From a virus: a stretch of 59,482 bases of DNA. Of this stretch, positions 27,427 to 44,444 are shown one piece after another (position 1 is the first letter of the stretch; every line of letters begins with the position of its first letter). The notes beneath the pieces were generated by a model, which was not told where the DNA came from, searched no databases, and was given only the letters and a program-made list of their open reading frames with translations. The translations under genes and the position numbers were made by a program. The stretch lies in the IMG/VR virus record IMGVR_UViG_3300042549_002361, positions 1-59,482 of that record; one strand, given 5' to 3'.

Positions 27427-28030
27427 ATAATTCCTCTGCGATAGCATTATGCACATGTTCATTACCGTGATGTAATTTACTATAGTGATCTGGCATCAGT
27501 TTTTCGTAATCTTCAAATATAGCATTAAATGGCTTGTAATACTTATCACTAAATAATTCACTAAAAGCAGGATGCTGGACACCTTCATAAAAGTGATTCC
27601 ACGCATTGAAGAACAAATAAGGTATACCCTTATTTTCTAAAAATGATTTTAACGCTAATTGATTAGTTAGTGTACGCTCTAACCCTAATGTATTCCAATT
27701 GCAACAATAAAGACTCATAAAATCAAACAACTTTTGCAGTTGCTCGCGGTCTTTTACATTTTCAGGTACCTGTCTACCTAATCCAAAATGATGCCATTCC
27801 TCATTAAAGATAACTTCTTGGCGTTCGTATGTAGTCCAACCGATAATAACGAAATCAACTTTGTTTGACAAACAATAGTTAATCGTAGTCCGAACTATTC
27901 GATCATTGCCGCCGCCGGGCATTGCTAAATTAACAGGTGACATATTCATCTTCTCAGATAGTGGGGTCACAAAACTGATAGGAGATTCGGAGCCAGCAAC
28001 ATGGCTGCATCCGTTAGCTAGCAGTATCAT
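27401..28030 (-). CDS. SGNH-hydrolase-like protein
   Basis: The N-terminus MILLANGCSHVAGSE carries the Gly-Cys-Ser of block I, and NLAMPGGGNDRIVR carries the block II Gly and Asn. A late His-rich segment (SKLHHGNEHVHNAI) may hold the catalytic His. It is 209 residues long. It overlaps the radical SAM gene upstream by 17 bases, so translation is coupled. Probable role: acyl or O-modification of a glycan; inferred from the fold only. Confidence 0.65.
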   Translation of the reverse strand: MILLANGCSHVAGSESPISFVTPLSEKMNMSPVNLAMPGGGNDRIVRTTINYCLSNKVDFVIIGWTTYERQEVIFNEEWHHFGLGRQVPENVKDREQLQKLFDFMSLYCCNWNTLGLERTLTNQLALKSFLENKGIPYLFFNAWNHFYEGVQHPAFSELFSDKYYKPFNAIFEDYEKLMPDHYSKLHHGNEHVHNAIAEELYERIARTK

Positions 28031-29318
28031 ACATTAATTTCCACAACTCTGGTATAGCACTGCTCATACTTTCATTACGTTGGCGATCAAGTATGCTTGT
28101 ATACTTTTTAAATATTGCTAACTGCTGTTCCCAGTCATCGTGACGATTCTCTTTAAGAGCACGTATTAGAGCGTTAATTGCTTGTAAGTTACTTTCACGT
28201 TTTACTAAGACTTTGCTAGTCGGAATCCATGATTCTAGTCTCTCTGCTGCAACACTACGTACATTATCAGGCAAGTTGCGGAAGTCTAAACTACGAGGAT
28301 AATCACAAATTAAGAAAGTTAAATGTATTTCTCTGTTATATTCTTTCTCTAGACTTTCGCAATAGTCTAATAGTTTAGTAATATCTAGTATATTATAAAT
28401 TTGAATTACTGGGCTAAACAACAAACTACCAACTACTTTACTGCTGCAATAGCTACGAACGTTTTCATCGGTCTGTGTCCAGTGACTTGCTCCTCTAATA
28501 TATTCGTTTAACTCGCCATAAGCATCAACGCTAAAGCACATCAACACACTCTTAAACTGTTCAACTAGTGTTAGGAATCTGCCTTTGATGTTAGTCATGT
28601 TGCTGTTGAAAACAAGATCTATGTTTTTAGCAATACCAAGCTCAACGCATTTTTCTAATATCCAATAGACACGCTCAATAATAGTAGGTTCACCGCCTGT
28701 GAAATAAAGTTTGTTAACACCTGGTAGCCATTCCTCTACTTGACGTAAAAACTCTGGATCATCCTGCCAGGGTGTAACATGATCTGCAAATTGCCCCCAT
28801 GTAAAATGCTTCTTAATAAAATCAGCTGCCATTGGGTCGTTTCCTTCAATGCGCTTGTATTCTTTTTGTATCTGACTACTGTTTTGTGGTTGACACATGC
28901 GACATTTTAAGTTACATAAGTTACCTAAACGGAAGTCCAAGTACATAGGTGCTTCATCTACTACATAGTCGTTGTCAATACTGCGCTCGATGCGTTGCAT
29001 AATGCTTTCACCGTGGCCGCTGTATTCAAACCAGTCGCGTATGTAGTTAGTACGATAGCTAGGGAAGCCCATCTTTTCTAAATCGTAGCAGTGTTCGCAA
29101 CCTTTAACTGTTTCGCCTTCAATCATCTGCTTACGAATTTTACGCATGTGATTATTGTTCCACACGCTTTCTATACGATCACCCTTGTTAAGGTCGAACA
29201 TAGTGCCGTCATCGTTTTTAAAGTTGTCGCGGGCAACACAGCACCAACTAACAGTGCCAGTGGGCTGTGTCATTACATGTATCCACGGATACGGACAAAA
29301 TGTTTTACTATATTCCAT
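28014..29318 (-). CDS. Radical SAM enzyme with N-terminal twitch/SPASM-like domain (1 of 8)
   Basis: Residues 8-80 form a SPASM/twitch-like auxiliary-cluster domain: FCPYPWIHV, CC at 26-27, and Cys74-x2-Cys77. The radical SAM core follows with Cys135, Cys139, Cys142 (CX3CX2C) and TGGEP at 207-211. The protein ends with the family-like IPELWKLMYD. The order (auxiliary domain first) is the reverse of usual SPASM enzymes and matches the N-terminal-twitch radical SAM family seen in phages. Its product is unknown; sugar or peptide chemistry are both possible. It abuts the next radical SAM gene. Confidence 0.9.
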   Translation of the reverse strand: MEYSKTFCPYPWIHVMTQPTGTVSWCCVARDNFKNDDGTMFDLNKGDRIESVWNNNHMRKIRKQMIEGETVKGCEHCYDLEKMGFPSYRTNYIRDWFEYSGHGESIMQRIERSIDNDYVVDEAPMYLDFRLGNLCNLKCRMCQPQNSSQIQKEYKRIEGNDPMAADFIKKHFTWGQFADHVTPWQDDPEFLRQVEEWLPGVNKLYFTGGEPTIIERVYWILEKCVELGIAKNIDLVFNSNMTNIKGRFLTLVEQFKSVLMCFSVDAYGELNEYIRGASHWTQTDENVRSYCSSKVVGSLLFSPVIQIYNILDITKLLDYCESLEKEYNREIHLTFLICDYPRSLDFRNLPDNVRSVAAERLESWIPTSKVLVKRESNLQAINALIRALKENRHDDWEQQLAIFKKYTSILDRQRNESMSSAIPELWKLMYDTAS

Positions 29319-30514
29319 TAAAAATCCTCAGGTGTGTTGCCGTGTTCTTTTAATATTTTATAAAACTCAGGAAACGTATCTTTGAACTTTTCATTTCTGT
29401 ATTGATCACTGAATGATGTATGCTTGTAAAAAATATTCATTTTAGTACTATCATAGTCAACATCAGTGCAATATTTTATTGAGCTTACAATATCAGGATT
29501 CGTACTATTTGCAAATTTTTCAAATACTTTCATTTTGACCCGCTTAGGCAACACTTTACAACTTAAATGCTCCGGCGTATAAACATGGTTAAAATAAATA
29601 GGCAGGTCAGGAAATTCCTTATCTCTCCAAGCAATAATTTCATCTAAGTAATAGATATTGAATATACTAACAGTATAACATATATCTGGAAAAAGTACAG
29701 GAATTTTTTGATCTAATAGTTTTCTTAGATTGTCTCGAACCTGATCCCACTTAGTAGGATTTCTAATATATTCAAAGTGTGAGCCAACACCGTCAATACT
29801 AAAACTAACCATAACACGTTTAAAGTGCGGCCACAGTTCAACTCCTCGCTCAGGATAAATGCTGCCGTTTGTATTATAGTTTAGTGTAATGTCTTTACTG
29901 CGACCAGTATCAACTAAGTTTTGTAGAATGTCATAGTGGTCAGTAATTAGTAACGGCTCGCCGCCATAGAATTCTAATACTTCTAGGTCAGTGCTAATCT
30001 CTTTAAAATCTTCCCAAAAAGCAGGGTTACGTTCCGGCCATCGACCAGCAACACGCATCTGATCCCAGAAGCGATTACCGTCACCGTCACGTTTTTTTTC
30101 TTCAGGTACCCATAAGCTACTAGCAAAGCTGTTGCAAATGCGGCAACGGTTGTTGCAGATATTACCTAGTTTCAGGTCCATTGCAATAGGCTTTTGTAGC
30201 TCTTTAGATTCCTGTGCGTTCTTTAATGCATCAGGAAAGTCTTTTAAGGCCCGCTGCCGCTTACTGTTTACACCAGCATCTTCAGCAGTCCAGCAACTGT
30301 AGCATGACGCAGGTTTTTCACCGTTTAAAAAGTCTTGCCGTAATTTATCTAGCCATTCGCTATTCCACCCATCACTAAGTGTATTTTCTGCAAGATTTAA
30401 TTTCTTGCCGTCCGGTCCTTTAATTAGCTCATCCATTTGACAGCAAATACTCATGTGTCCATCAGTACGTGCTTCAATGTTTACGAAAGGCATTGGACAA
30501 AAATATTTGCTCAT
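29318..30514 (-). CDS. Radical SAM enzyme with N-terminal twitch/SPASM-like domain (2 of 8)
   Basis: The twitch part has FCPMPFVNI, CC at 24-25 and Cys71-x2-Cys74. The core has Cys120, Cys124, Cys127 and GGEP at 184-187. The C-terminus carries KDTFPEFYKILKEHG, the FPE signature shared by most of these paralogs. The length is 398. The start overlaps the stop of the following radical SAM gene by four bases (ATGA). Substrate unknown. Confidence 0.9.
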   Translation of the reverse strand: MSKYFCPMPFVNIEARTDGHMSICCQMDELIKGPDGKKLNLAENTLSDGWNSEWLDKLRQDFLNGEKPASCYSCWTAEDAGVNSKRQRALKDFPDALKNAQESKELQKPIAMDLKLGNICNNRCRICNSFASSLWVPEEKKRDGDGNRFWDQMRVAGRWPERNPAFWEDFKEISTDLEVLEFYGGEPLLITDHYDILQNLVDTGRSKDITLNYNTNGSIYPERGVELWPHFKRVMVSFSIDGVGSHFEYIRNPTKWDQVRDNLRKLLDQKIPVLFPDICYTVSIFNIYYLDEIIAWRDKEFPDLPIYFNHVYTPEHLSCKVLPKRVKMKVFEKFANSTNPDIVSSIKYCTDVDYDSTKMNIFYKHTSFSDQYRNEKFKDTFPEFYKILKEHGNTPEDF

Positions 30515-31737
30515 ATGTTTTTTAACTCCGGAAATACATCTGCAAAGTTTTCTCCCCTTAGATAGTCAAACTCTGCATTAAATTTTTTAAATTCTTCTAG
30601 TAAATATGTATGATCATCATCTAAAAACTTAATAGCACTACGATAACCTTCTGTAGCACGGCCGATGTGATCTTGCGGCTCTAACCATTTTAAATGCTTT
30701 TGCCACTTATACTTAATTTCTTCTTTTAAGCTTTGTGGTAGTACACTCATTCTAAATCTTTGATTGTTTAACAGTACGTTTACATACCAATCGCCTGCTT
30801 TAATGTAACCTTTTTCTACCCAACTACGATGGAAATCTGTAACGTGCCAAGCATTATATGCACTAACAGTTGCACTAACATAGAAATCAATTTCTGGTGC
30901 TCTCGATCTAAGTTCTTCTATATTAGCTACTACATCATCCCAATTGGTGCCTTTGCGTTGATACTCTCCTCGAGCACCTTCCGCATCTAAACTAGCACCA
31001 ACACTAATATGCTTAAAGTTTTTCCATAAGTCGATAACATTGTGTTGTTTGTATTTAAGTTTTGTAAAGTTAGTATTGTAGAAAATACGAATATCTGTTT
31101 TACCTAACTCTACAAGACGATTCATAATGTGCCAATGCTCGTCCATAATGATAGGTTCGCCGCCGGCCCAGTATATCTGCTCAATGTGTGGAAGCATAGT
31201 TTCAAATTCTTCCATGAAGCCTTCGACGTCCTTACGAATCTGAATTACTTGCTCTGTTGGTGTTTGATTGAAACTGCTTTTTACTGCATCATTAAACCAG
31301 TTACTACTGAGTTCTGGACCGCAATAGCGGCAGCGTAGGTTGCATACGTTACTGAAACGGAAGTCTAAGTATACAATATGCAGGTCATCTAAGCTGCCAT
31401 CAGTGTTGGTCTTTGCAACTTTATCCCAGTGTGGTTCTAACCAGTCTCGATTACTGCGAACACGTAAACTATCATGCCCATACTTTTCTTTTTCGTAGCA
31501 ACGGATACACTCTTTACATGACTTTCCTTGCAGCATGTTAAGTCGTACTTGCTTCATAGAAGGACTATTCCACACTTCACGCAAACTATTTTCACGTAAA
31601 TCGCCTATGTGGGTTTCCCAAGGACTGTCACAGCACAGCATAGTCTTGCCGTTGGGCCACGGATGCATATGAATCCACGGCAATATACACATGGACTTGT
31701 TGTCTTTTGCATCTTCTAAGTTAAATTGTTTATCCAT
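30511..31737 (-). CDS. Radical SAM enzyme with N-terminal twitch/SPASM-like domain (3 of 8)
   Basis: This member shows the clearest SPASM hallmarks at the N-terminus: MCILPWIHMHPWPNG, CC at 35-36, IGDLRENSLREVWNSP, then Cys74, Cys77 and Cys80. The core has Cys132, Cys136, Cys139 and AGGEP at 191-195, and the protein ends in FADVFPELKNI. These hallmarks suggest an auxiliary iron-sulphur cluster held by the N-terminal domain. The gene overlaps its glycosyltransferase-like neighbour by 22 bases. Confidence 0.92.
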   Translation of the reverse strand: MDKQFNLEDAKDNKSMCILPWIHMHPWPNGKTMLCCDSPWETHIGDLRENSLREVWNSPSMKQVRLNMLQGKSCKECIRCYEKEKYGHDSLRVRSNRDWLEPHWDKVAKTNTDGSLDDLHIVYLDFRFSNVCNLRCRYCGPELSSNWFNDAVKSSFNQTPTEQVIQIRKDVEGFMEEFETMLPHIEQIYWAGGEPIIMDEHWHIMNRLVELGKTDIRIFYNTNFTKLKYKQHNVIDLWKNFKHISVGASLDAEGARGEYQRKGTNWDDVVANIEELRSRAPEIDFYVSATVSAYNAWHVTDFHRSWVEKGYIKAGDWYVNVLLNNQRFRMSVLPQSLKEEIKYKWQKHLKWLEPQDHIGRATEGYRSAIKFLDDDHTYLLEEFKKFNAEFDYLRGENFADVFPELKNI

Positions 31738-32900
31738 TTTACCAAACTGCTGTTATTGCCTAATTCTTTTAATAACATAAAATTTCTATGAAATCTATGT
31801 GTTAATTGGTTGTTTATTAGAGCGTTCCAACCCTCTAATGTGTGTAATTCCGTTAATCGTTTTAATTCATTAAACACCATATCACAACGTTTAAAAATAT
31901 TATCTTCTCGATCATAGCTATGATCAATTATATCATCAAATAAATCAAAACCTAAAATTCTAAGTTGATTAACATAACCCGGGGCTGCAATAAACAATGG
32001 CATTTGGGACATTAAGAACGGTTTAGCAGATTTTTCTGTAAAAAATAATCGGTCGCTGTTTACTCTGCACCAAGAAAGTCCACGAGTAGAATAAAATCGT
32101 TCGTGGCTTCTGTGATCAAACCCAACACTCGATTCTTGCACAACATTAAATACAGCTTCGTCGAAGTTGTCTACCATATGGTGCTGTTGGACGTCTGCGT
32201 GACCTAAGCTAACTGGAAATTTCTCTATGTCTTTTTCATCTAAAAACTTTAAGAGATTTCCTCTATCGTAAGAGTTATTCTTATTCCATAGTGTTTCAAC
32301 ACTATGATCACCCCAGCCGCAACTGTAAATACCTTTTTCTTTTATGTTGTCATCATCGAGAATCTTTTTTGTAAAATAAATTCGTTCCGTTCTAGCTAGT
32401 CTGCCTAAACTTAAATAATAATATGATCTATTTTTAGCAGTAGCATGTTCTGGGTAGCCAGCAGTATGATTATTATTTAATATTTGAAAAAACATGTTTC
32501 CTGTCTTATGAAATATGTTAATATCGTTAACATGCGAATAAATAAAACCTGACGTTAAACCACCATCGACCCATATAATTTTTTTGTAGCCATAGCTCCT
32601 AATAATGTCAAAAACAACATTCCAATAAACAGAATTAAGTGCTTCACTTAGGTAACCAACAACAATATAATCTTTTTTAGGTAGCTTCTCTAACGCGGCC
32701 CGAGTGTATACTGCCATATTGTATTCTGACATACACTGATAATCTATAATATTAAAATTTCCCGTATTATCTAATAAATTATATAATTTATCGTAGACTT
32801 GATCACAATGAATTATATCAATACCTTGGCGAGTGGTGCCTTTAGATAGTCGGAACGGATCAGTTAGTACACCTGTTATATGAGTAGTCTCAATATTCAT
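31716..32900 (-). CDS. Probable glycosyltransferase, fucosyltransferase-like C-terminus (394 aa)
   Basis: The C-terminal part has FTEKSAKPFLMSQMPLFIAA, then GYVNQLRILGFDLFDDIIDH and a DRE segment. This is like the donor-binding half of phage and bacterial glycosyltransferases related to GT10, where EK and the following Gly-Pro/Gly-Tyr bind the nucleotide. The N-terminal half has no clear motif. It sits between two radical SAM genes and overlaps both. The role inferred is transfer of an edited sugar. Confidence 0.6.
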   Translation of the reverse strand: MNIETTHITGVLTDPFRLSKGTTRQGIDIIHCDQVYDKLYNLLDNTGNFNIIDYQCMSEYNMAVYTRAALEKLPKKDYIVVGYLSEALNSVYWNVVFDIIRSYGYKKIIWVDGGLTSGFIYSHVNDINIFHKTGNMFFQILNNNHTAGYPEHATAKNRSYYYLSLGRLARTERIYFTKKILDDDNIKEKGIYSCGWGDHSVETLWNKNNSYDRGNLLKFLDEKDIEKFPVSLGHADVQQHHMVDNFDEAVFNVVQESSVGFDHRSHERFYSTRGLSWCRVNSDRLFFTEKSAKPFLMSQMPLFIAAPGYVNQLRILGFDLFDDIIDHSYDREDNIFKRCDMVFNELKRLTELHTLEGWNALINNQLTHRFHRNFMLLKELGNNSSLVKWINNLT

Positions 32901-34134
32901 GTTTAAATCCGTATTTCTCTACCATTTCTATTAGTTCAGGAAAAACAGTTCGCCAAGTTAAATTAGCGGGATGCTCTCGTTGCTTATCAAGTTGATCGTT
33001 ATAACGGCAAAACTGCTCCCATTTAGTTTCGTCCCAACTATCATTTTCAAATAACCCTGTTATATTTGAAAAATGCACACCATTGCCGTATTTTCCGTTT
33101 CTATATTTTGTAATAATTTCCTGTCTCACCTGCGGTGGTAGTACTGCTGGACTTAGAAAGTCTGGATCGTAAACAAAGTTCATGTCTACAGGTACTTGCG
33201 CCCAGTCTAAAAATTCTTCTAGATAAGCAAAATTGTATGCGCTAACAGTTTGTGTAATACGAACAGTTAACTCAGTCTGCATTAAAGTATTTAGATTGTT
33301 TCTAACATCAGCCCAATATGTTGGATAACGTATATAATGATTTCGAATATTCAAATCGTCAATACTAGGACATACACGAGTTTCTTTAAACTCACTCCAC
33401 AGAGGAATAGCCTGCTCTGGTAAGTTAGTCATATTAATATTATACCATAATGTAATATTCTTACTACGCCCGCTTTCTACTAGCTTGTGTAAGTACTTCC
33501 AGTGAGCTTTAATCAGTGTAGGCTCACCTCCGTTAATATACAGCACTTCCATATTAGGAGCACAGTTATACAAGTCTTCATAGAACGCATCATCTTCAGG
33601 CCACTTGAAATCATTCTTATGATCTAACCAGCTATAACCATCATTTACGAAATCAAGCGTTTCAACCAATTCTTTATAGTCGCGGCGCCATTGGCTACTA
33701 CTTGCAGGATTGCAAGTCCTACACCGAACATTGCAAACATTACCAAGCCTAAGCTCAACAAAGCGAAGGTCAAGAGGAATGCCCCCGTTAGCATCAGTAC
33801 TGCTAGTAGCCCAAGAAAGGCTTCTGTGAGGGTACTGTTCGATCTCATGTACACGTTTGCTGCGTATTCCCTTATCTTCTTCATCATAACACCTCATACA
33901 TGCAACAGGCTTTTCTCCATCGAGCATCTGCTGTCTAATTTGCTTAAAATAATCACTGTTCATATGTGTGTCGATGTTGTGATCATTTAAGTTAAAGAAC
34001 TGATCTCCGTCAGTTCCAAAGTTCCTTGCACGATTCTTACCCGCTGTATGGTCACTGATACAGCAAGGGGTAACACCACCGTGCGGATGTGTGCCTAAAT
34101 GAATCCACGGCAACGGGCAATAAGTATTACTCAT
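32890..34134 (-). CDS. Radical SAM enzyme with N-terminal twitch/SPASM-like domain (4 of 8)
   Basis: The twitch part has YCPLPWIHLGTHPHGG, CC at 24-25 and Cys79-x2-Cys82. The core has Cys134, Cys138, Cys141 and NGGEP near 200. The end reads TVFPELIEMVEKYG. It is 414 residues long and overlaps the next paralog by four bases. A second, hydrophobic 80-codon frame lies inside it at 33645-33887 (see findings). Confidence 0.9.
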   Translation of the reverse strand: MSNTYCPLPWIHLGTHPHGGVTPCCISDHTAGKNRARNFGTDGDQFFNLNDHNIDTHMNSDYFKQIRQQMLDGEKPVACMRCYDEEDKGIRSKRVHEIEQYPHRSLSWATSSTDANGGIPLDLRFVELRLGNVCNVRCRTCNPASSSQWRRDYKELVETLDFVNDGYSWLDHKNDFKWPEDDAFYEDLYNCAPNMEVLYINGGEPTLIKAHWKYLHKLVESGRSKNITLWYNINMTNLPEQAIPLWSEFKETRVCPSIDDLNIRNHYIRYPTYWADVRNNLNTLMQTELTVRITQTVSAYNFAYLEEFLDWAQVPVDMNFVYDPDFLSPAVLPPQVRQEIITKYRNGKYGNGVHFSNITGLFENDSWDETKWEQFCRYNDQLDKQREHPANLTWRTVFPELIEMVEKYGFKHEY

Positions 34135-35468
34135 ATAAATGAACCTTTAGCTACAGCGCCGTATTTAGGATCAGCTAATGCTTTAGTATAATGAAAGTCG
34201 TAATCAAAATAAGGTTTGATTATTTCGTATAGTTCAGGAAATGTAGTCCTAAAGTCTTCTCCCCTATATAAATCACCAGCAACTATTTGTTGCATAAACA
34301 TTCTACGGCGGACAGCCATTTCGGTTTCTACAGTAATATTTGGGTCGGGTACATCACTCCAGTCACGCATTGGTATAACAACTTCTTCTAACGGTGTCAG
34401 TACATGATTAATAATACCTTTAATCTGCCCTTCAATTGATGCATTAGGAAAAGTCATGTTTTGTAACGGCGCAACAATACGTGATTTTACAAATTCTTCA
34501 AACACATTACTGTTATACCAGCTAGGGAAATGAACCATGTTAAAGAAAATTTCAAAGTTAGGCCAACGAGATGAAAATACATCAACATATTCTTTAAGAT
34601 ACATAACATTCAATGCTGATACAGTACACGTAATGCTTACGTAAATTTCTTTGTTTGTGTGTAAGGTATGGAAGTGATCTAAATTAGCACTAACAATATC
34701 CCAATCTGCGCCGTGTCGCAAGTATTCAAATCTTTCTTTTGATGCTGCGTCAATGCTAACACCGAAGCCTACATCTTTGAAGTTTGCAATTAATTTACCC
34801 ACTAGATCAGTATGCAGTTGTGTACCGTTTGTACTAAAGTTTAAGGCGATATCTTTAGAAATACCGCGGTCAATAAGTTTTTCTGCAAAAGCTTTAAACT
34901 CTTTCATATACAAAGGTTCGCCGCCCATGATTTCTAGATACTTAATATCCTTGATCCAGTCGTCCATCTCAGTCCAAAACTTTGCATTTTCCATATCATC
35001 CATAGGAATTTGTACGGTTTCTTTTAAATATGGTAAACCACGATCTTCTGATTCTTTAACCCACTTACTGCTGTAGTTAGGATTGCAGGTTCTGCATTTG
35101 ATATTACAAGTTGTTCCTAAGATAAGCTGAAAGTCTTGTGGCATTTCTGGCTCAGATGAATAATCAATTTCATCGTACCGCCATTTAGCATATCCGTTGT
35201 ACATCTCTCGTTTAGATTGTTTACCATTTGCTTCATCTTGCCAGCAATGTTTACAGTTTGTAGGTAGTTTACCATCGCGAATTTCTTGGCGAATGTTCTT
35301 GTAATAATCGCTATGAAAAATATCCCTTACGCTAGTACTGCCTAAGGTAAACGGGGCACCGTTTGTGTCGTACACACGCTCCTGCGCGATGCAACAAGTT
35401 CTGACGAATCCGCCGGGTTCGTTACTCATGTGCTTCCACAGTAAACTACAGTATCTTGGTTCTGCCAT
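34131..35468 (-). CDS. Radical SAM enzyme with N-terminal twitch/SPASM-like domain (5 of 8)
   Basis: The twitch part has YCSLLWKHMSNEPGG, CC at 25-26 and Cys72-x2-Cys75. The core has Cys121, Cys125, Cys128 and MGGEP about residue 183. The C-terminus has RTTFPELYEIIKPYF. It is 445 residues long. A strong hairpin and an AGGA site precede its ATG, separating it from the dehydrogenase gene upstream. Confidence 0.9.
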   Translation of the reverse strand: MAEPRYCSLLWKHMSNEPGGFVRTCCIAQERVYDTNGAPFTLGSTSVRDIFHSDYYKNIRQEIRDGKLPTNCKHCWQDEANGKQSKREMYNGYAKWRYDEIDYSSEPEMPQDFQLILGTTCNIKCRTCNPNYSSKWVKESEDRGLPYLKETVQIPMDDMENAKFWTEMDDWIKDIKYLEIMGGEPLYMKEFKAFAEKLIDRGISKDIALNFSTNGTQLHTDLVGKLIANFKDVGFGVSIDAASKERFEYLRHGADWDIVSANLDHFHTLHTNKEIYVSITCTVSALNVMYLKEYVDVFSSRWPNFEIFFNMVHFPSWYNSNVFEEFVKSRIVAPLQNMTFPNASIEGQIKGIINHVLTPLEEVVIPMRDWSDVPDPNITVETEMAVRRRMFMQQIVAGDLYRGEDFRTTFPELYEIIKPYFDYDFHYTKALADPKYGAVAKGSFI

Positions 35469-35484
35469 AAAAAAATCCTATATA

Positions 35485-35511: not shown

Positions 35512-35516
35512 AACCT

Positions 35517-36821
35517 TTATCTAGTATTACCGTAATGCACAACAAATACTCCTGATAGCTCAGGAGTCTTGCGCCACGGATCAACTACAACACTGCCTTT
35601 AGCAAACGATAACGCTGTACCATTGGCTGTGGCAACTGTGAGTGCTTCGTCGGCTCCGGTAACACGATGGTTAGCATACCATCCCTTTACAAAGTCCAAC
35701 TGTTCACCGTAAGTGATCTGCGGATTATGTGCTAATAGATATACAGCAGGATTATCTAACACATCCTGCGGTGGAATTTCTCCCATTACTTCATCTAAAT
35801 AATAAAGTTCCGCACCAAGTGATTCTACATAATGACCTACTAGCATACTGCTACTTCCAGCATCATATGGCACCAATGGCTTATAGGCTTTACCTACAAT
35901 AATCACAGGCATGAGTGGTATAACACCTGCTCCGATCGAAGCAAGATCAACTAGCTTTTTAGCCATGTTTTCTGCTTGTACTTCACGACTACGCATTACT
36001 GCATCAAACAGATCGTATCCTAAGTCTAGTCTTTCTGCTAGATAGCGTAGGGCAATATTATCGCGAGGATGACATGCGCCGCCATCGCCCATGCCCGGCT
36101 TCATATAACCTGGACCCATGATGCGTCTATCGCTGGATGCTAGTGCATCGCAAACTACTTCGGCATTAACATGACCTAGCTTCTCTGCTACGTCTTGAAT
36201 CATATTTACTAGACTTACTTTGGCACTAATGAATGTATTATAGAACACTTTAATACACTCAGTTTCTTCCCACGTGCCAATGATATAACGTGGTTCGTTC
36301 TGCATAATGGTCTTGTAGAAGTCTACAAGTTCCTTTGCATCACCTGTTTCGCTACCGTCTTCGGTGCCTATCATAACCATTTCTGGGTTAACCATATCCC
36401 ATTTAACAGTACCCATAGCAATTAAGTATGGGTTATAAATGAAACGTGCATTAGTTATTAGTGGTTGTAATTGACTGCGAACTGTGCCTGGTAGCACGGT
36501 TGAAATAAGAACAATTAACTGAGAGGGGGTTGCAACAGCATTTACCTGACGTAGTACATCTTTAACCACACTGTAGTCAAAGTCTTTGTTGGGTAAATGG
36601 CTGGTAGGTGCTTTGCCATCATATTGTGGGTCATGCGGTGTTTCCACTGCAATGAATACAATATCTTGCCCTTGCACAGCCTGCTCTAAGTTGGGAACCA
36701 TCTTAAAGTTTTCTGGACTGCGGGCAGAGATATCGTACCCTACAACATCATGAACCTCGGCAACCATCTCGGCGCAGGCTTGTCCTAACTTGCCTACTCC
36801 AATAAATCCGATTGAGGCCAT
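35517..36821 (-). CDS. UDP-glucose/GDP-mannose dehydrogenase-family protein
   Basis: The 434-residue protein has an N-terminal NAD-binding motif (IGFIGVGKLGQACAE), the central block KVFYNTFISAKVSLVNMI with the family Lys and Asn, and the catalytic Cys250 in MGDGGACHPRDN. A C-terminal UDP-binding domain follows (VGKAYKPLVPYDAGSSSM). Such enzymes oxidise the C6 hydroxyl of a nucleotide sugar to the acid. A glycan pathway is therefore likely. It has a late-type promoter box and a leader hairpin. Confidence 0.9.
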   Translation of the reverse strand: MASIGFIGVGKLGQACAEMVAEVHDVVGYDISARSPENFKMVPNLEQAVQGQDIVFIAVETPHDPQYDGKAPTSHLPNKDFDYSVVKDVLRQVNAVATPSQLIVLISTVLPGTVRSQLQPLITNARFIYNPYLIAMGTVKWDMVNPEMVMIGTEDGSETGDAKELVDFYKTIMQNEPRYIIGTWEETECIKVFYNTFISAKVSLVNMIQDVAEKLGHVNAEVVCDALASSDRRIMGPGYMKPGMGDGGACHPRDNIALRYLAERLDLGYDLFDAVMRSREVQAENMAKKLVDLASIGAGVIPLMPVIIVGKAYKPLVPYDAGSSSMLVGHYVESLGAELYYLDEVMGEIPPQDVLDNPAVYLLAHNPQITYGEQLDFVKGWYANHRVTGADEALTVATANGTALSFAKGSVVVDPWRKTPELSGVFVVHYGNTR

Positions 36822-36843
36822 TTGTATCTCCTAATTTTTTAAA

Positions 36844-36859
36844 TACAGTTTTAACTGTA
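36844..36859 (-). promoter_or_regulatory. 5'-terminal leader hairpin of the dehydrogenase gene
   Basis: TACAGTT and AACTGTA pair over seven bases around a two-base gap (effective loop four). It begins at the expected first base of a transcript from the late-type box at 36865. Confidence 0.5.
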
Positions 36860-36864
36860 CGCAA

Positions 36865-36872
36865 TATTTATC
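36865..36872 (-). promoter_or_regulatory. Late-type promoter box GATAAATA
   Basis: Minus-strand GATAAATA lies in the gap upstream of the dehydrogenase gene, 43 bases from its ATG. AGGAGA lies just before the ATG. Confidence 0.55.
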
Positions 36873-36898
36873 AGGAGATTTTTAAAAATTTTGGTTTT

Positions 36899-37552
36899 TT
36901 AGAGTGCGCTTTTTAGCAGATCGTAAATCTTAAAATCATCTTGCCAATAGGTATTAATGTAATCTAGTGCTCGAGGATCTACTATACTAGTATATTTTTT
37001 GTACTGCCTAAACGAATAGTTGCTAAAATTTGATGTATTGGTTATTCCGTATTTTTCAGCAATCTCTGATACCATTAAATCTATATTCTCATACAAGAAC
37101 ACACGATTCACTAACCTATTATTATAGTTCAACCAAGTAGATTGCGGGCTAGCCTGAAACATGTTCATGTAGCATTTAAATGTTGAAAAGTTTTCTAAAA
37201 TATTAACGTTTTCTACTTTTTTCAACATAGACTGAAAACTTAAAAATCGATCTAGAGGATTTCTGCATACTGCATATATATCGTATTCTGTTAATGGATA
37301 AGTCAATAGATTTAATTTAACGATTTCATCTAAAGTAGCATGTATTCCGTTAGTAGTAGTAATTGCTGACTCATTAAAATATCCCTCTTTAATTTTACTA
37401 GATTCATCTTTTCGTAAAACATCAGAATTGTCAACTAGTCTAATTATATTTTCTTCTAAGGGTAAATTTTCATAAAAATATACTGATACAGAAGTAGAAC
37501 CCGTTTTGGGTACCCGTAGATATATAAACTTTTTTTCGTTACTTACTAACAT
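36899..37552 (-). CDS. Sulfotransferase-like protein
   Basis: ATG 37552 is chosen; the longer frame from 37639 reads deep into the neighbouring radical SAM gene. Near the N-terminus lies RVPKTGSTSV, the PAPS 5'-phosphosulfate loop, and later AVCRNPLDRFLSF, the 3'-phosphate loop with Arg and the downstream Ser. This fits Golgi-type (family 2) sulfotransferases. It would add sulfate from PAPS to a glycan hydroxyl. No PAPS synthesis genes are in view. The gene overlaps its neighbour by 14 bases. Confidence 0.75.
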   Translation of the reverse strand: MLVSNEKKFIYLRVPKTGSTSVSVYFYENLPLEENIIRLVDNSDVLRKDESSKIKEGYFNESAITTTNGIHATLDEIVKLNLLTYPLTEYDIYAVCRNPLDRFLSFQSMLKKVENVNILENFSTFKCYMNMFQASPQSTWLNYNNRLVNRVFLYENIDLMVSEIAEKYGITNTSNFSNYSFRQYKKYTSIVDPRALDYINTYWQDDFKIYDLLKSAL

Positions 37553-38936
37553 CTCTACGCATCCACCAATTGTACAATTCAGCATCTGCTGCATATATGT
37601 TTTCGATGCGTAAGGGCTGATCGGGACGTATATCAGCAATCTTATCCTGCCAGTTGCGTCCTTTAAAAAACGATTCTTCTGCTTGATCGGGCCACTGTTC
37701 TTGAAATGTGGGTGTTACCAGCATGTTCTCTAATTCACGTATTAGAGTCTGTTGTTTGTGTGTGGCTCTAGGTACAATGTAATCTAAATTATCTTTAATA
37801 ATACGATCTAAAATGTGTCGTGGCCATGCCATAGGACTAAACACAATATCAGGATGGAACGCAAACATACGTTTAGTTTCAATCTTAACGTCTAATTCTA
37901 GTGCATAGTCAAAGAAACGCTTTAGATCAAACATACCAGGACCAGTTAGTGTAAGGTCCATAAGCATACGATCCTTGCCACCCGGAAGTGCAACACCTTC
38001 GCGGAAATTTTGGTCCCACTGGTCCCACTTAAGGCCTGTTCGAATAAACTCACCAATCTTGCCGGTGCCATCAATGCTAGCACACATAGTCCAATCTTTG
38101 GCTTTAGGCAACCAATCGTACAAATAATGATTATTAAACCGTATACGACTTAAATTGCTGTTATAACGTAAGTGTACATTCTTTAGATTGTCGTCTTGTG
38201 CAAGTCTGTCCATTGCACGCCAGTGAATATCATACATCAATGGCTCGCCGCCTACCCAATATATTTCTTCTACTACACCACTACAGATAGCAGCCCAGAA
38301 CTCCTCCTCTACAACTTCTTTTTGGAATCGGTCAATGATTGCCTTATTCTCCGGGACCATAAAGGGTTGATTGGCTGAGTTCCATAATCCATGCTTTCGT
38401 TTTTCTGCTTCCCAGCTCGACGAAAGAGGCTCACCACACGTACGACACTTAAAATTGCATAAATTACTGACCCTATAGTCAAAGCTAATAGGAACCATAC
38501 TAGTACGTCCATCATCATCTGTCTCCTCAAATGCTTGTTCTATTTTATCTTTAAATAAAAATCCTGTAAACCATTGGCGGTAAGTGCTTTGACTTAAAAT
38601 GCTATCATTACATACTGCACACTGTGGTATTGTTTCCCCAGCCATTAGCTTCTTACGAATATCCATCATATAAGGACTGTTCCAATGTTCGTCTAGGCTA
38701 ACGGGTTTGTAATCGTCAATGGTGCCCACTTCCTTGTACTTGCCAGTGCTTTTATCATTACTAGCATCAATGTATTGGCGCTGCATCATATGTTCTTCGC
38801 GACTGGCGCAACACATACGGCGTTCACTTTGCGGACTAATATATGTATGTGTCCACGGCGCCATGCAGAATGTTCTGTTAGGCGACTCGGGGCTCATTTG
38901 TCCATGTTCCCAAATTGGTTTAATTTTGTTTGTCAT
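37539..38936 (-). CDS. Radical SAM enzyme with N-terminal twitch/SPASM-like domain (6 of 8)
   Basis: The twitch part has FCMAPWTHTYISPQSE, CC at 42-43 and Cys106-x2-Cys109, with a longer loop between them than in the others. The core has Cys160, Cys164, Cys167 and VGGEP about residue 230. It is 465 residues long. Its C-terminus lacks the FPE ending of the other paralogs, so it may have a distinct substrate. It overlaps the Smr gene by four bases. Confidence 0.9.
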   Translation of the reverse strand: MTNKIKPIWEHGQMSPESPNRTFCMAPWTHTYISPQSERRMCCASREEHMMQRQYIDASNDKSTGKYKEVGTIDDYKPVSLDEHWNSPYMMDIRKKLMAGETIPQCAVCNDSILSQSTYRQWFTGFLFKDKIEQAFEETDDDGRTSMVPISFDYRVSNLCNFKCRTCGEPLSSSWEAEKRKHGLWNSANQPFMVPENKAIIDRFQKEVVEEEFWAAICSGVVEEIYWVGGEPLMYDIHWRAMDRLAQDDNLKNVHLRYNSNLSRIRFNNHYLYDWLPKAKDWTMCASIDGTGKIGEFIRTGLKWDQWDQNFREGVALPGGKDRMLMDLTLTGPGMFDLKRFFDYALELDVKIETKRMFAFHPDIVFSPMAWPRHILDRIIKDNLDYIVPRATHKQQTLIRELENMLVTPTFQEQWPDQAEESFFKGRNWQDKIADIRPDQPLRIENIYAADAELYNWWMRRDVSK

Positions 38937-39169
38937 ATCTTATATATATCTATTACACCATAGTGGTCCATTGTGGCCACTGTTATTTTATGTCGCTTAA
39001 TTACTGCAAACACTAGATCAATCATTATATGACTGTTACCGCAGATTATTTTTAGTGGCAACAAATGTTGATTCATAAAAATAAAATTTTCTACTAAGCG
39101 ATCAACTTCATGATGTCTAATGCCGTGTAAATCAAGTGTGCTTTTTAAATTCATATTAGCCTTTTTCAA
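38933..39169 (-). CDS. Smr-domain protein (78 aa)
   Basis: The product has LDLHGIRHHEVDRLVENFI and then LKIICGNSHIMIDLVFAVI, the two landmarks of the Smr (small MutS-related) fold: the DLHG loop and the G-N/G-S loop. Smr domains bind or nick nucleic acids. A stand-alone Smr of this size in a glycan cluster is unusual. It overlaps genes on both sides. Confidence 0.8.
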   Translation of the reverse strand: MKKANMNLKSTLDLHGIRHHEVDRLVENFIFMNQHLLPLKIICGNSHIMIDLVFAVIKRHKITVATMDHYGVIDIYKI

Positions 39170-39803
39170 AAACCATCATAACGCAATGTTTTTTAGATGG
39201 GTGACTAATAAAATTTAACTTATTATAATCAATATGTGTTATGCATCTATACCCAACGGATTCTAATATTTTTATATATGTTTTATCGTTGATACCGATA
39301 CACCAAGGTACCATAATTTCTGTGTCTTTATCTGTTTGCGAATTACCATTATCGTTAATTAATTCTCGCTCAATTGTTATATCAATCGAGCCCGATGTAC
39401 TTTCAATAATTATATAAGTAGGCTTGCTCTTGTTAACAATTTTTTCTATTAAATCTAACGGACTTGATAAATGGTACAATAGACCCATGCATATTACTAC
39501 ATCAAACGTAGAATTTGATACGTTATAAAAATCATTTGCAGTCATAGGAAAAAATGTTACATTCTTAAAATCTGTAGCTAACTCATTTAAGCTATCTTTA
39601 AAGAAATCATCAGGTTCAACACAAACAAGAGAAGTTGGGTTATATTTAATAACAAGTCTAGAATGCCAAGAATCATTAGCAGCAAATTCTAGTACTGTTC
39701 TGTCATTGCATATAGAAAATATTTCTTTGCTATCCAAAAAGTTAATGTAAGTTTTCCACTCATCATCAACATTAGCCCATGCATAATTATATCTATCACC
39801 CAT
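39156..39803 (-). CDS. SAM-dependent methyltransferase, class I
   Basis: ATG 39803 is used; the frame from 39809 begins with TTG. Motif I is VLEFAANDSWHS, the acidic residue is in VCVEPDD, motif IV is FDVVICMGLLYHLSSPLDLI. This is the common small-molecule or sugar methyltransferase type. It overlaps both neighbours. The likely role is O- or C-methylation of a pathway sugar. Confidence 0.85.
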   Translation of the reverse strand: MGDRYNYAWANVDDEWKTYINFLDSKEIFSICNDRTVLEFAANDSWHSRLVIKYNPTSLVCVEPDDFFKDSLNELATDFKNVTFFPMTANDFYNVSNSTFDVVICMGLLYHLSSPLDLIEKIVNKSKPTYIIIESTSGSIDITIERELINDNGNSQTDKDTEIMVPWCIGINDKTYIKILESVGYRCITHIDYNKLNFISHPSKKHCVMMVFEKG

Positions 39804-40533
39804 TTGCAATCTCTAGTATTTCTAAATTCTTATAATAATCATAAAACTGTTGTGGCGTAAGTATTGATGCATTATCACTGTCTTCATCACCTAAATACTT
39901 TTCAATAAATTCTACACCTTTGTATGCTACTGCTACACTAGGAAATATTCCTGCATCTTTACTTTCGTATCCAACGCGATACTTCTGCAATAGCAATTTA
40001 TCAATAGTTGATAAGTCCATTTCTACTAGTTTAGGAGGAAAATCATCTGTTGTGTAATACACTGTTACTTTATGTTTCTGCGGAAATAAAATATTAGCAT
40101 CGTTTAGGTGTTTGTAATTAAAAATAATTTTACTAAAATTATCTTTACAATAGCGACTAAGTTCATAAATATTTATTGCGCTGTTATGTAATTTTACAGT
40201 TGTAGCGTTGCAATACTCTTTAACGAATTCTGCTGCCGTACTGTCAGTTACACTCCATATTACTGGAATACCAATTTGATCTGCAAGTTTAGTAACACGT
40301 ACAGCAGTCTCCTTATCAAGCTCACTTCTTTTAGCTACTTCTATATAAGGCAAATGCCCCCAGCGGCTGGGTATTGAAACATATTTCTTTTCTTCGGGTA
40401 TAAGCAAACTAGGCGTGCTTTTAGTAATAACAACAGCATCAGCATTACACTGTGCTGCTGCTATTAGCCGCGTTTCCAGGACACTAATATCATTTTCGTG
40501 CCCTACTCCTATATTTGCGTATAGCTTAACCAT
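39796..40533 (-). CDS. NeuB-like (sialic-acid-synthase-like) TIM-barrel protein, short
   Basis: The N-terminus ANIGVGHENDISVLETRLI followed by ADAVVITK mirrors the start of NeuB/SpsE enzymes (E-x-G-x-N-H). Later blocks match too: QIGIPVIWSVTD, KLHNSAINIYELSRY, and RVGYESKDAGIFPSVAVA near residue 190, which aligns with the GYSDHT region. At 245 residues it lacks the C-terminal antifreeze-like (SAF) domain. NeuB condenses PEP with an amino sugar to make nonulosonic acids. The short length leaves activity open. Confidence 0.72.
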   Translation of the reverse strand: MVKLYANIGVGHENDISVLETRLIAAAQCNADAVVITKSTPSLLIPEEKKYVSIPSRWGHLPYIEVAKRSELDKETAVRVTKLADQIGIPVIWSVTDSTAAEFVKEYCNATTVKLHNSAINIYELSRYCKDNFSKIIFNYKHLNDANILFPQKHKVTVYYTTDDFPPKLVEMDLSTIDKLLLQKYRVGYESKDAGIFPSVAVAYKGVEFIEKYLGDEDSDNASILTPQQFYDYYKNLEILEIANG

Positions 40534-42184
40534 CGCCCTCTACGCCGCCTAAGCCGTCTGAGTCGGTGTCCCACCCAATACTACTGCCGCCAATTTTTTT
40601 AAGTACTTCAGCACGGGCCTCAGGATCTAACGGACTGTCGTACCAGTCAACACTTTCTCCTGTTTTACGTTGGCGGATTCCCTGGACAACTACTTCACCA
40701 TCTTCACTTACGGTACGATGTGCATAGATACTAGAGTCTTTGGGCTGTTGAATATCCTTTTCAGGTTTGTCGAGAGGAATCACGTTAATGCCATCATAGT
40801 ACTCAACAAAGTCTGGGAACGTTTCGCGGAAGTTTTTACCTCGGCGAGCGTCATATTGCTCGTAGAATACTTTAAAGTCATGCTCAAGTAATGCACGATC
40901 CGCAGTGTTGCGGTGTGGAGTCTTAACAACGTCTAAATATTCAATTAGACGACTAACTTGATCCTGTTCCCAAGGTTGAACTAACTGCAAACCATTTGCA
41001 TCACGCTCATCTTTTTCGCGCACGTTGTTGAGCCACTCAAAAATCTCATCGTGATATTTTTTACGTAACTCGTCTGGTAGCGTTAGCGGACTTTGGAAGC
41101 TGGGGAATCGTAGAATGTTACACGTAAATCCAGGACGATTGTGTCCATATTTACGTTTCATTTCTAGCATCCAGTTAAAGAAATCTACGATACTATGCAA
41201 ACACAATGAATTAATTGTCATCATCATATGTAAGCCTTCGATACGTGCTTCGCTGCAAATACGCTCAAAGTTATGCTTCCATTCTTCCCAGTTTAGGCCA
41301 TCACGAATATATTCAGCTTGCGGTCCAACAGACTCACAACTAGTGTACAAGTGAAAACGTGGAATATGCTGTGTACCGTCAATTAACTTGTCTATAAGTT
41401 CTTTCTTAGAACCTAAATTACTGTTAATAGCAAGACGCATCTTTTGCGCTTGCGGTGTGTCAGCATTTTCTTTGAACCAATCAAACAGCTTGTATATGTC
41501 TGGAGTCATTGTGGGTTCGCCGCCAGTAACACGAATTTCTTCTAGCTCCTTGGACAGCTCCGGCCACCAGCGCCAGAACGCATCTACATATGGATTGAAT
41601 TCTTCTCTAGTAAAAGGCTCTGCATACGGAGCGTCGTCAATAAAGTGACCTCTAGCATCACTACGAATATTTTGATAGCCGCCGTTGTTACGAATGTCTT
41701 TGACCCATGTGCTGGAGAAAGCAGGATTGCAGTATGAACAAGCAAACTGACATGTACGGTTAAATGCAATTTCAAGTGTTTTTAAATTAACATCTTCGTT
41801 TGGATTCAGCTTTGCGATCTTCTTAAGGTCTTCGTCGTCGTAGATAACAGTCTTATAGGTACGATCACTTACAGGCTCGTTGCCGTCAGCATCCTTGCCC
41901 ATGTCCTCAATCTTCCAGCAGTATTCACATTCCTTAGGACGCTTGCCTTCCTGCATCATTTCACGCATTTTCTTTTTGTGCTTAGTGTTATGAATTGCGC
42001 TAGGATTGTCCTTAAGTTCAGCAATATCAATGTTATGCGCGGGCGGGTGATGGCAGCTAGTAGTACCACCATGTCCTAACCAAATAGTAGCATTGTACCA
42101 CTTAGCTGCACAGAAAGATTCACTCACAGAGTCAATCATTCTCTTTTTAAATTCTCTGTGGCTTTCGCCCTGCTTACGTCCCAT
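40526..42184 (-). CDS. Radical SAM enzyme with N-terminal twitch/SPASM-like domain, CHHPP subtype (7 of 8)
   Basis: At 552 residues this is the longest paralog. The auxiliary domain has FCAAKWYNATIW, then SCHHPPAHNID (Cys44-His-His) in place of the CC of others, and Cys86-x2-Cys89. The core has Cys145, Cys149, Cys152 and TGGEP about residue 225. It ends with RETFPDFVEYYDG and an extra tail of about 85 residues. The His-rich variant suggests a different cluster ligand set. It overlaps the NeuB-like gene and abuts the GDSL gene. Confidence 0.9.
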   Translation of the reverse strand: MGRKQGESHREFKKRMIDSVSESFCAAKWYNATIWLGHGGTTSCHHPPAHNIDIAELKDNPSAIHNTKHKKKMREMMQEGKRPKECEYCWKIEDMGKDADGNEPVSDRTYKTVIYDDEDLKKIAKLNPNEDVNLKTLEIAFNRTCQFACSYCNPAFSSTWVKDIRNNGGYQNIRSDARGHFIDDAPYAEPFTREEFNPYVDAFWRWWPELSKELEEIRVTGGEPTMTPDIYKLFDWFKENADTPQAQKMRLAINSNLGSKKELIDKLIDGTQHIPRFHLYTSCESVGPQAEYIRDGLNWEEWKHNFERICSEARIEGLHMMMTINSLCLHSIVDFFNWMLEMKRKYGHNRPGFTCNILRFPSFQSPLTLPDELRKKYHDEIFEWLNNVREKDERDANGLQLVQPWEQDQVSRLIEYLDVVKTPHRNTADRALLEHDFKVFYEQYDARRGKNFRETFPDFVEYYDGINVIPLDKPEKDIQQPKDSSIYAHRTVSEDGEVVVQGIRQRKTGESVDWYDSPLDPEARAEVLKKIGGSSIGWDTDSDGLGGVEGDG

Positions 42185-42909
42185 TATTTGTCCTCTTCAA
42201 TGATATTTCTTAACCGTGGCATTAAATGTGTACGAGCCCAAACGGGCGTCGCCGATATTTGATTTGGATGCATATCGTCTGCTAGCGGTAGATTTTGTTT
42301 AACGCACCAATCTAGCATCCCATACTCAATAAACTGTACCTTATCTTTATTTAACAAGTGTTGTAGCATTGGCCTGTCTTTCTCCGCTACCGCTTGCTCC
42401 CAGCCTAATGTGCATAGTACATTATGGCCGGCGGCTGCTAGTAATACAATATGCGCTACTGTTTCTTGTAGTACTACTTCTGCTATACTCTGTAACCCGT
42501 AAGGGTCAACAATTTCACGCTCAAACGAGTTTGCATCCTGACATAACATAACCGAAAGTTTTTCTTTGTCAAAGACATTTGGCAATTGTTTTTGATATTG
42601 ACATAATGGATCTGTGGATTTGTCCTTAAGGTTTTGTATCATGTTTATAGGACCAATCTGTATTTCAGGTGTTAACACTGTATTGAATCTCGATACAGCA
42701 TTAATTTCCCAAAAGAAAATGTCATCGCTGCCATATTCGTCTGACAACAAATAGTGTTGGAGTAGCAGTACCTGTGTACGATTGTTACCAGCGCCGACTG
42801 CAAGATTGTGATACCCTAAGTTTAACTCCTGGCAAAGTTGTCTAGCCCACGAAAACTCGAGATTATCAGCAGTAAGACTATCGCCTAGAAAAACAATCTT
42901 TCTCATCAT
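42184..42909 (-). CDS. GDSL-type SGNH hydrolase
   Basis: All expected blocks are visible: GDSL in FLGDSLTAD, the block II Gly in AVGAGNNRTQ, and block V Asp-x-x-His in DDMHPNQISA. This is the most complete of the four SGNH-like proteins in the window. Such enzymes are esterases or acyltransferases, commonly deacetylating polysaccharides. It sits between two radical SAM genes of the CHHPP subtype, each sharing an end with it. Confidence 0.82.
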   Translation of the reverse strand: MMRKIVFLGDSLTADNLEFSWARQLCQELNLGYHNLAVGAGNNRTQVLLLQHYLLSDEYGSDDIFFWEINAVSRFNTVLTPEIQIGPINMIQNLKDKSTDPLCQYQKQLPNVFDKEKLSVMLCQDANSFEREIVDPYGLQSIAEVVLQETVAHIVLLAAAGHNVLCTLGWEQAVAEKDRPMLQHLLNKDKVQFIEYGMLDWCVKQNLPLADDMHPNQISATPVWARTHLMPRLRNIIEEDK

Positions 42910-44444
42910 TCCACCAATGCTTCAGCTTCTTGGCAAATTTGCCACCAGTCTTCCATTTCCGGAAACACTGATAAAAAGTCTGTGTCTCTACGCTGATCAT
43001 GTTGCGTAAAGAACTTGTAAAAATTAGCTCTCGCTTTTAGTACTTCTTCTTCACTTAACTTACTGCCCGCTTTCATCCATTCTAGGTTACGACGTGCTTT
43101 ATCTATTTCAAAGTCCTTAAAGCCTCTATAGTCTATATACTGTTCGTTGGCAGCATTAAGTTCCATAAAAGCAATAGCTTCTTCTAAGTAGTCTTGATAC
43201 CATTCGGGCATTACTTGTATGCATTGCCAGTGTGGTGCTCGCAGTAGCGGAATGTCAAACCAAATACGTTGCTTTGGTTTAATTTCATAATCCGGGTGCT
43301 TGTGATCACCGTTGTCCGGTATTGGTATGTATTTAACGCCCTGCCGATCCTTGGCGAACTCTTCTCGGAGCTCTAAGATAAACTGCAACCATTCACGGAA
43401 GCTGGTCAAGCTAAGAGCATTAAATGTATTAATAAATGTGATAGTAGTGTTGTCTGTTTCACGTAACACACGCAACACATTATTCTTTAGCATTTCAAAG
43501 TCCATGCCATTACGCATGTACTCTGCTTGTTTACCAAAACCGTCACAGCTAACAAACACAGCAAAGTTCTTACAAGCCGGTGCTACATACCAGTTGTTTC
43601 CACTGTTTGGATTAAACTTCTGTGGATCTTCCCAAATTTGAATCTGTTCTAAATGCTGTAGCGATTCAATAAACTTGTCCATTAGCTGTGGCTTAGGCGG
43701 ACACATGTTTGATGTCACACTCATCTCTAACCATGCGTTAGGATTATTGCGTACATAGTCAAGTACCTTAAATGTGTTTACGTCCATTAGTGGCTCACCG
43801 CCGGTCATACGAAACACTTCTAGACTTTTATACAGTTCAGGCCACCACTTCCAGAATGCTTCTACATACGGATTCTCATCTTGTGCTACACGTAAGGGCA
43901 TTAGGCCTGCGCGAGCTAAACTTTCTGTGTTGTTATGCTCGCCGCCTACGATTTGATACGGTCCATAGTCTTTGACCTCTTGATGCCAGCTGGTGCTTAG
44001 ATGCGGACTGCAATAGCTACACTTGAAGTTGCAGGCTTGGTTAAAGTTTACTTCCACATAACGTGGATTAATGTTGCCTTCCCACCCAGCTGCCTTAATA
44101 TCTTCTTTGGCGTTTTGCGCCCAATATTCACCACTGCGATAAATGCGATCACTGCGGCCACCTACATCTTCAATCCGCCAGCAATAGCTGCACCCAGCTG
44201 GACGTTTTCCTTCCAGCATATCCTTACGCTGTTCTTTTTTCTCAGAGGTATTGTGCAGTGCGCTAGGATTAACAGCTAGTTCTTCTAGGTCAATTTTATG
44301 AGTAGGTGGGTGATAGCAACTATGTGTCATGCCATTAGTAAGATGCATAGATACTTGCGCCCATTTTGCATAACACATAGTGGAACTGATAGCATCTAAT
44401 TCTTTTTGAGCAGCATCGGCCGCAGTTTCATAATGACTACTCAT
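42906..44444 (-). CDS. Radical SAM enzyme with N-terminal twitch/SPASM-like domain, CHHPP subtype (8 of 8)
   Basis: The auxiliary domain has MCYAKWAQVSMHL, SCYHPPTHKID (Cys43) and Cys85-x2-Cys88. The core has Cys138, Cys142, Cys145 and TGGEP about residue 217. The end reads FLSVFPEMEDWW. It is closest to paralog 7 by the HPP motif and by a shared ALHNT/AIHNT element. It overlaps the GDSL and SDR-like genes by four bases each. Confidence 0.9.
   Translation of the reverse strand: MSSHYETAADAAQKELDAISSTMCYAKWAQVSMHLTNGMTHSCYHPPTHKIDLEELAVNPSALHNTSEKKEQRKDMLEGKRPAGCSYCWRIEDVGGRSDRIYRSGEYWAQNAKEDIKAAGWEGNINPRYVEVNFNQACNFKCSYCSPHLSTSWHQEVKDYGPYQIVGGEHNNTESLARAGLMPLRVAQDENPYVEAFWKWWPELYKSLEVFRMTGGEPLMDVNTFKVLDYVRNNPNAWLEMSVTSNMCPPKPQLMDKFIESLQHLEQIQIWEDPQKFNPNSGNNWYVAPACKNFAVFVSCDGFGKQAEYMRNGMDFEMLKNNVLRVLRETDNTTITFINTFNALSLTSFREWLQFILELREEFAKDRQGVKYIPIPDNGDHKHPDYEIKPKQRIWFDIPLLRAPHWQCIQVMPEWYQDYLEEAIAFMELNAANEQYIDYRGFKDFEIDKARRNLEWMKAGSKLSEEEVLKARANFYKFFTQHDQRRDTDFLSVFPEMEDWWQICQEAEALVE

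Follow-up and report, generated by a model that had tools for sequence, protein, structure and literature searches.

Why would a large aquatic phage carry eight radical S-adenosylmethionine (SAM) genes in one cluster, and on what would their products act? The question is raised by IMG/VR virus record IMGVR_UViG_3300042549_002361, the whole of which (59,482 bases) was analysed here and is called the window. A first-pass annotation of the same DNA had picked out eight paralogs with an extra cysteine domain ahead of the radical SAM core. Here, we report that the eight genes form one family and belong to an ordered block that recurs in other viral contigs together with glycosyltransferases. By slightly better than an even chance, in our estimate, the region is a phage module for building and tailoring a glycan, in which serial radical reactions modify a variable glycan of the virion or the host surface.

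The eight open reading frames (ORFs) are present at the starts originally given for them, all on the minus strand; they encode 398 to 552 amino acids (aa) and are tightly packed, with overlapping ends. All eight matched NF033640 (N_Twi_rSAM, twitch domain-containing radical SAM protein; curated cut-off, 170 bits) over nearly the whole model, at 296.2 to 405.6 bits (E 4e-88 to 2.4e-121), scores so far past the cut-off that chance is excluded. We refer to these N-twitch radical SAM genes as A (28014..29318, 360.8 bits), B (29318..30514, 358.1 bits), C (30511..31737, 405.6 bits), D (32890..34134, 363.5 bits), E (34131..35468, 296.2 bits), F (37539..38936, 301.7 bits), G (40526..42184, 319.2 bits), and H (42906..44444, 318.2 bits). 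The search against this model, which the first-pass annotation had suggested, thus places all eight in one family. A ninth, weak match (6693-7091, 16.8 bits) is QueE-like and was rejected as a member.

The CX3CX2C and GGEP motifs noticed earlier are intact and invariant in all eight proteins, and PF04055 (radical SAM) was found in every one (above cut-off in five). In the alignment, numbered by gene C, the invariant cysteines fall into an N-terminal set of four (C17, C36, C77, and C80) and the three of CX3CX2C (C132, C136, and C139); the C-terminal part holds no conserved cysteine. SPASM (PF13186) covers the N-terminal ~80 to 110 residues in six proteins (five above cut-off). The N-terminal domains of G and H, which carry SCHH and SCYH variants, respectively, are too diverged for Pfam, and all four of their cysteines still align. 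The extra cysteine domain does, then, precede the core; of the two outcomes named beforehand as fatal to the proposal, a missing auxiliary domain and a set of unrelated families, neither was found. The C-terminal signature claimed for seven of the eight held if slight latitude is allowed, with FPE or PEL in six, FPD in G, and no such end in F.

To what, then, is this N-terminal domain related? A full-length family profile was built from 95 viral homologs, and in a PDB search its residues 6 to 80 matched BtrN at the C-terminal twitch domain (E 1.4e-5); with a profile of the N-terminal domain, the BtrN twitch alone fell below E 0.2 (two entries, E 0.0016 and 0.0021). In the sequence alignment, the N-terminal cysteine columns coincide with the auxiliary-cluster cysteines of BtrN, all four being conserved. 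BtrN is a two-electron oxidase of 2-deoxy-scyllo-inosamine whose auxiliary cluster has four cysteine ligands and is a likely electron acceptor (PMC9012708). SPASM and twitch domains are described in the same review as C-terminal extensions; here the twitch stands before the core, so the textbook domain order is reversed, which is the order that NF033640 denotes. The core of the array proteins also matched cytosylglucuronate decarboxylase in the PDB profile search. An AlphaFold2 model of the gene C protein (mean predicted local distance difference test score [pLDDT], 95.9) has a core fold like those of SPASM enzymes, namely, the CteB-type sactipeptide maturase (5wgg/5why), SkfB, and anSME; the differing domain order keeps the TM-scores near 0.4.

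Did the family multiply in this phage? Homologs were collected (470 sequences from 117 loci) and a tree was made of 154 representatives, in which each of the eight genes falls apart from the other seven and together with genes of other phages, some deep branches being poorly supported. The window paralogs share at most 34% identity with one another, and each has a relative at 93 to 99% in another viral contig (for gene A, 93% in contig L001). Recent tandem expansion in the window phage was therefore rejected; the earlier suggestion that one family had multiplied holds for the single family and fails for any recent multiplication, the paralogs being old. The array was also looked for in related phage contigs, as the first-pass annotation had proposed, and the order H-G-F-E-D-C-B-A recurs across them; contig L008 has all eight genes so ordered, at 41 to 81% identity. 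Ratios of nonsynonymous to synonymous substitution (dN/dS) against relatives were 0.018 to 0.116 for all eight genes where dS could be estimated, values that indicate purifying selection and are rough because many dS are near saturation. Judged by these comparisons, the array is an old block, inherited in order, and all eight of its members matter. In contrast to the window array, three adjacent radical SAM genes of contig L028 (5424-9096) form one group in the tree and represent a local tandem expansion.

Two positions of the block, which the first-pass annotation had passed over, depart from their neighbours. Between L001 and L009, identity is 95% for A, 91% for C, and 91% for F but 47% for B and 58% for E; between L005 and L008, it is 89% for A, 84% for C, and 90% for D but 44% for B and 58% for E. 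Gene B of the window is 95% identical to that of L009 but 41 to 47% identical to those of L001, L008, and L010, and B sequences form two types in the tree. Such divergence amid neighbours at 91 to 95% is the pattern expected if single tailoring steps are exchanged, and the divergent B and E alleles are apparently steps exchanged between related phages, the alternative being that both genes diverge very fast locally.

The best functional clue, also missed at first, lies in the surrounding glycosyltransferases (all window features in this and the next paragraph are on the minus strand). A profile search of the PDB with the family of the 45650..46645 protein gave no match, so that folds had to be compared; its AlphaFold2 model (mean pLDDT, 83) has a GT-A-type fold, and its top Foldseek matches are mostly glycosyltransferases (SunS, E 9e-5; the rest weaker). 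The 1,100-aa repeat protein at 22223..25525 shares this family in its C-terminal third (profile A5, residues 882-1099, E 4.8e-51) and is probably a glycosyltransferase itself; relatives of it lie near the arrays in 58 of 75 viral loci. It consists of repeated short units (W-VD-D ... GG-RL-PK), and its counterparts in related loci are 549 to 1586 aa long. The 47295..48170 protein is glycosyltransferase family 8 (GT8)-like, with a profile match to glycogenin (E 3e-5), and that at 49579..50487, also GT8-like, belongs to the same profile family. A further conserved partner, at 31716..32900, belongs to a family found in 38 of the 75 viral array loci; it matched nothing in Pfam or the PDB and is perhaps a GT-B glycosyltransferase. 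Of the 75 viral loci with at least three radical SAM genes, 64 have members of one or more of three families linked to the array, of which A5 and A6 are glycosyltransferases by fold or profile; since the families were defined from those same loci, the count measures recurrence and is not an independent test. The cultured Vibrio phage K566 is an independent case: its four N-twitch genes, ~24% identical to gene C, alternate with a weak GT4-like gene and two GT8 genes (PF01501, E 8e-8 and 2.5e-12).

Other neighbours resemble enzymes of sugar supply and decoration. They include an O-carbamoyltransferase (25753..27279; PF02543, E 1e-41; PF16861, E 1e-56), a member of the UDP-glucose/GDP-mannose dehydrogenase family (35517..36821; PF00984, E 2.5e-18; PF03721, E 4e-15), a methyltransferase (39156..39809; PF08003, E 2.8e-10), a NeuB-like synthase (39796..40533; PF03102, E 3.4e-12), and a class II aldolase/adducin-like protein (48966..49598; PF00596, E 1e-28). 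Two DUF6071 proteins (27401..28030, possibly SGNH-type, and 48151..48957; PF19547, E 5.8e-8 for each) and a GDSL/SGNH-like hydrolase or acyltransferase (42184..42909; PF13472, weak and below cut-off) are also present. The sulfotransferase-like gene (36899..37639; PF03567, E 1.2e-7) has no relative in the 75 related viral array loci; it has a TTG start, overlaps gene F by ~100 bases, and looks like a recently gained cassette.

In the pathway that we infer, substrate, reaction types, step order, and target alike, the 45650, 47295, 49579, and probably 22223 proteins would assemble a sugar chain from activated sugars supplied through the NeuB-like, UDP-sugar-dehydrogenase-like, and aldolase-like genes. 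Each radical SAM enzyme would make a 5'-deoxyadenosyl radical and abstract hydrogen at an unactivated sugar carbon of the chain or its precursor; in oxidations, the substrate electron would pass to the auxiliary [4Fe-4S] cluster of the N-terminal twitch, with its four cysteines, as has been proposed for BtrN. Different positions would in this way be oxidised, deoxygenated, or epimerised, and carbamoyl, methyl, sulfo, and perhaps acyl groups would be attached afterwards. The finished glycan would change the host surface or form a coat on the virion, for which the simplest site would be the tail-fibre region encoded immediately upstream on the same strand. The first-pass annotation's suggestion that the enzymes act on a complex molecule in series or as alternatives is plausible.

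Several observations weigh against a glycan as the substrate. The BtrN match concerns a small domain at moderate E-values and would not fix the substrate, and SPASM/twitch folds are common to peptide maturases as well. The best full-length core fold matches are to peptide- and protein-modifying SPASM enzymes, so that fold alone cannot choose between sugar and peptide. Members of NF033640 have no known substrate or activity, and a Pfam tally around the arrays of Bdellovibrionota gave no dominant family and no clear glycan signal. No flavodoxin gene was found in 14 records, so reduction would depend on the host.

The alternative that survives best differs from the glycan-tailoring module in its target alone: the module would remodel the host envelope (O-antigen or capsule) and so block superinfection, which we rate a serious possibility that falls short of probable. 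NeuB, UDP-sugar dehydrogenase, and carbamoyltransferase genes are typical of surface polysaccharide loci. The host-recognition clusters of pelagimyophages join lipopolysaccharide (LPS) genes, tail fibres, and radical SAM cassettes (PMC7029224). However, no phosphoglycosyltransferase (PF02397) was found in the 14 records, and by hydropathy none of the cluster proteins is convincingly a membrane protein, so the host alone would have to provide lipid-linked assembly and export. These absences favour cytoplasmic glycosylation, for example of virion proteins, over a complete phage-borne pathway for an envelope polysaccharide, and are compatible with use of the host's carrier.

A second alternative takes its strength from those fold matches, the closest being thioether-forming and protein-modifying enzymes, and from weak NCBIfam matches to peptide maturases and tail genes that adjoin the cluster. 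The radical SAM enzymes would modify proteins or peptides directly, in the manner of anSME or of the maturases of ribosomally synthesized and post-translationally modified peptides (RiPPs), for instance by cross-linking or epimerising tail fibres, with the glycosyltransferases acting independently on the same proteins. We regard this as rather unlikely. Neither a PqqD domain nor a RiPP recognition element (RRE) was found in the window, in 13 related records, or in the eight proteins, although many known maturases have no recognisable RRE and its absence only lowers the claim. The array has no ORF like a precursor peptide, its genes overlapping or leaving gaps of at most 219 bp, and the 70-aa lipobox ORF described below is 6.5 kb away; with neither RRE nor precursor found, a RiPP cluster was rejected. 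The glycosyltransferase linkage, moreover, recurs in an unrelated cultured phage.

Relatives of the array enzymes, BtrN and BlsE, act on small molecules, and carbamoyl- and methyltransferases are common tailoring enzymes, so the array could instead make a diffusible aminocyclitol-like or nucleoside-like compound for host takeover or against competitors. This seems improbable to us, because polymer-type glycosyltransferases, including the 1,100-aa repeat protein, accompany nearly every array and the cluster has no recognisable gene for export or resistance. A viperin-like antiviral or nucleotide-modifying function, hinted at by weak NCBIfam core matches (16 to 32 bits), is hardly credible and was rejected, the scores of at most 31.8 bits against a cut-off of 180 for NF038283 being better explained by the shared radical SAM core.

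How widespread are glycan-tailoring candidates of this kind? IMG/VR viral contigs contain 539 stretches related to gene H, which is more widespread than any of the other seven, and 50 related viral records have 2 to 21 NF033640 matches each, mostly at least 5, weak matches included. Large aquatic viral contigs commonly have arrays of 5 to 21 copies, which are also found in some Bdellovibrionota, the group to which the bacterial relatives of gene H chiefly belong. In phylum samples, a match at 1e-40 was found in 20 of 78 Bdellovibrionota genomes and in 3 of 120 from the phylum of Beijerinckia, a few of these being seed genomes. One genome of the Bdellovibrionota, bacteria of predatory type, has 33 matches (G052), and a 30-kb part of its contig 1 (locus L120, 745-774 kb) alone has more than a dozen. 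Some array contigs from marine metagenome-assembled genomes (e.g., L142 and L154) may be phage DNA that was placed in bacterial bins. Among ~50,000 cultured or deposited phage records, gene C matched only Vibrio phages K566 and K567; a protein search with gene H found no relative among cultured phages, and none had a DNA-level match. The array is thus neither unique nor the largest of its kind, given up to 21 matches in related viral records, up to 33 in Bdellovibrionota genomes, and a virus with 12 radical SAM genes published in 2017 (PMC5332604). Two array-bearing records have a gene for an A-type iron-sulfur (Fe-S) carrier (G013, 242146-242448; G033, 100143-100445), which fits the Fe-S link of that paper.

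The flanks bear on the type of phage and on the proposed target. The window is probably a fragment of a jumbo-type phage, because the 54648-59384 protein is similar to virion proteins of PA5oct and its relatives. The 52372-53937 protein weakly matched a tail-fibre profile (phrog_19602, 7.6e-7); this gene adjoins the glycan genes, with glycosyltransferases from 50487 downwards, as in a host-recognition cluster. The cluster is set off from the tail genes by a strong terminator-like hairpin (51222-51191), so joint transcription is not established, and promoter-like sites were no more frequent in the window than in shuffles. Just past the hairpin, between the tail genes and the cluster, lies the 70-aa ORF (50930-51142, minus strand), with a signal peptide and lipobox (MKKITTIAVATALLGLAAC). 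Farther off, GTP-cyclohydrolase-like (5161-5856) and QueE-like (6603-7490) genes, both on the plus strand, mark a preQ0/7-deazaguanine-type region (5161-8052), perhaps for DNA modification, and a Bax1-I (BI-1 family) membrane protein, found here in a phage, is encoded at 1495-2163 (plus strand; PF01027, E 4.6e-54).

NF033640 is a widespread radical SAM group that, through the array, is tied to glycosyltransferases in two separate phage lineages; the BtrN-like auxiliary domain points to sugar chemistry, and Vibrio phage K566 offers a cultured phage for testing. As a tentative extension, jumbo and other aquatic phages might inherit a line of radical SAM enzymes that writes position-specific C-H changes into their own surface glycan and might swap single enzymes with related phages to change glycan type. 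If so, such swapping would be the phage equivalent of serotype switching, achieved by radical chemistry, and the N-terminal-twitch enzymes would form a radical SAM class specific to glycans. Should the array indeed tailor a glycan, phages would own a store of position-specific sugar-modifying enzymes, and the gain and loss of radical SAM cassettes in their host-recognition regions would be explained.

Radical-SAM-rich marine phages have already been published, so the kind is known. In the open-licence literature, we found no paper on twitch radical SAM proteins in phages, jumbo phages, or Bdellovibrio and no description of an ordered N-twitch array, a BtrN-like domain in it, recurrent glycosyltransferase partners, or divergent alleles at single positions. 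The T4-like marine virus TARA_ERS488813_N000010 carries its 12 radical SAM genes with phage-borne Fe-S assembly genes (Nishimura 2017, PMC5332604); they were treated as Fe-S proteins rather than as a glycan array, and the likeness lies in their number. The pelagimyophage host-recognition cluster is a variable region with tail fibres, glycan/LPS genes, and radical SAM cassettes (Zaragoza-Solas 2020, PMC7029224), for which no subfamily, function, conserved order, or allele exchange was given, and its phage is T4-like, whereas the window is probably jumbo-type. BtrN, from butirosin biosynthesis (PDB 4m7s and 4m7t), has a homologous auxiliary domain with four cysteines at the same spacing, and a single auxiliary cluster is expected; its twitch follows the core, whereas that of the array proteins precedes it, and the latter are 130 to 280 residues longer. 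Vibrio phages K566 and K567 (OZ196521 and OZ196593), virtually the sole cultured relatives found, resemble the window in having four N-twitch genes among glycosyltransferases but, at ~24% identity, do not carry the same block. The NF033640 model, finally, names an architecture only; here, eight of its members stand in one ordered phage block with glycosyltransferases.

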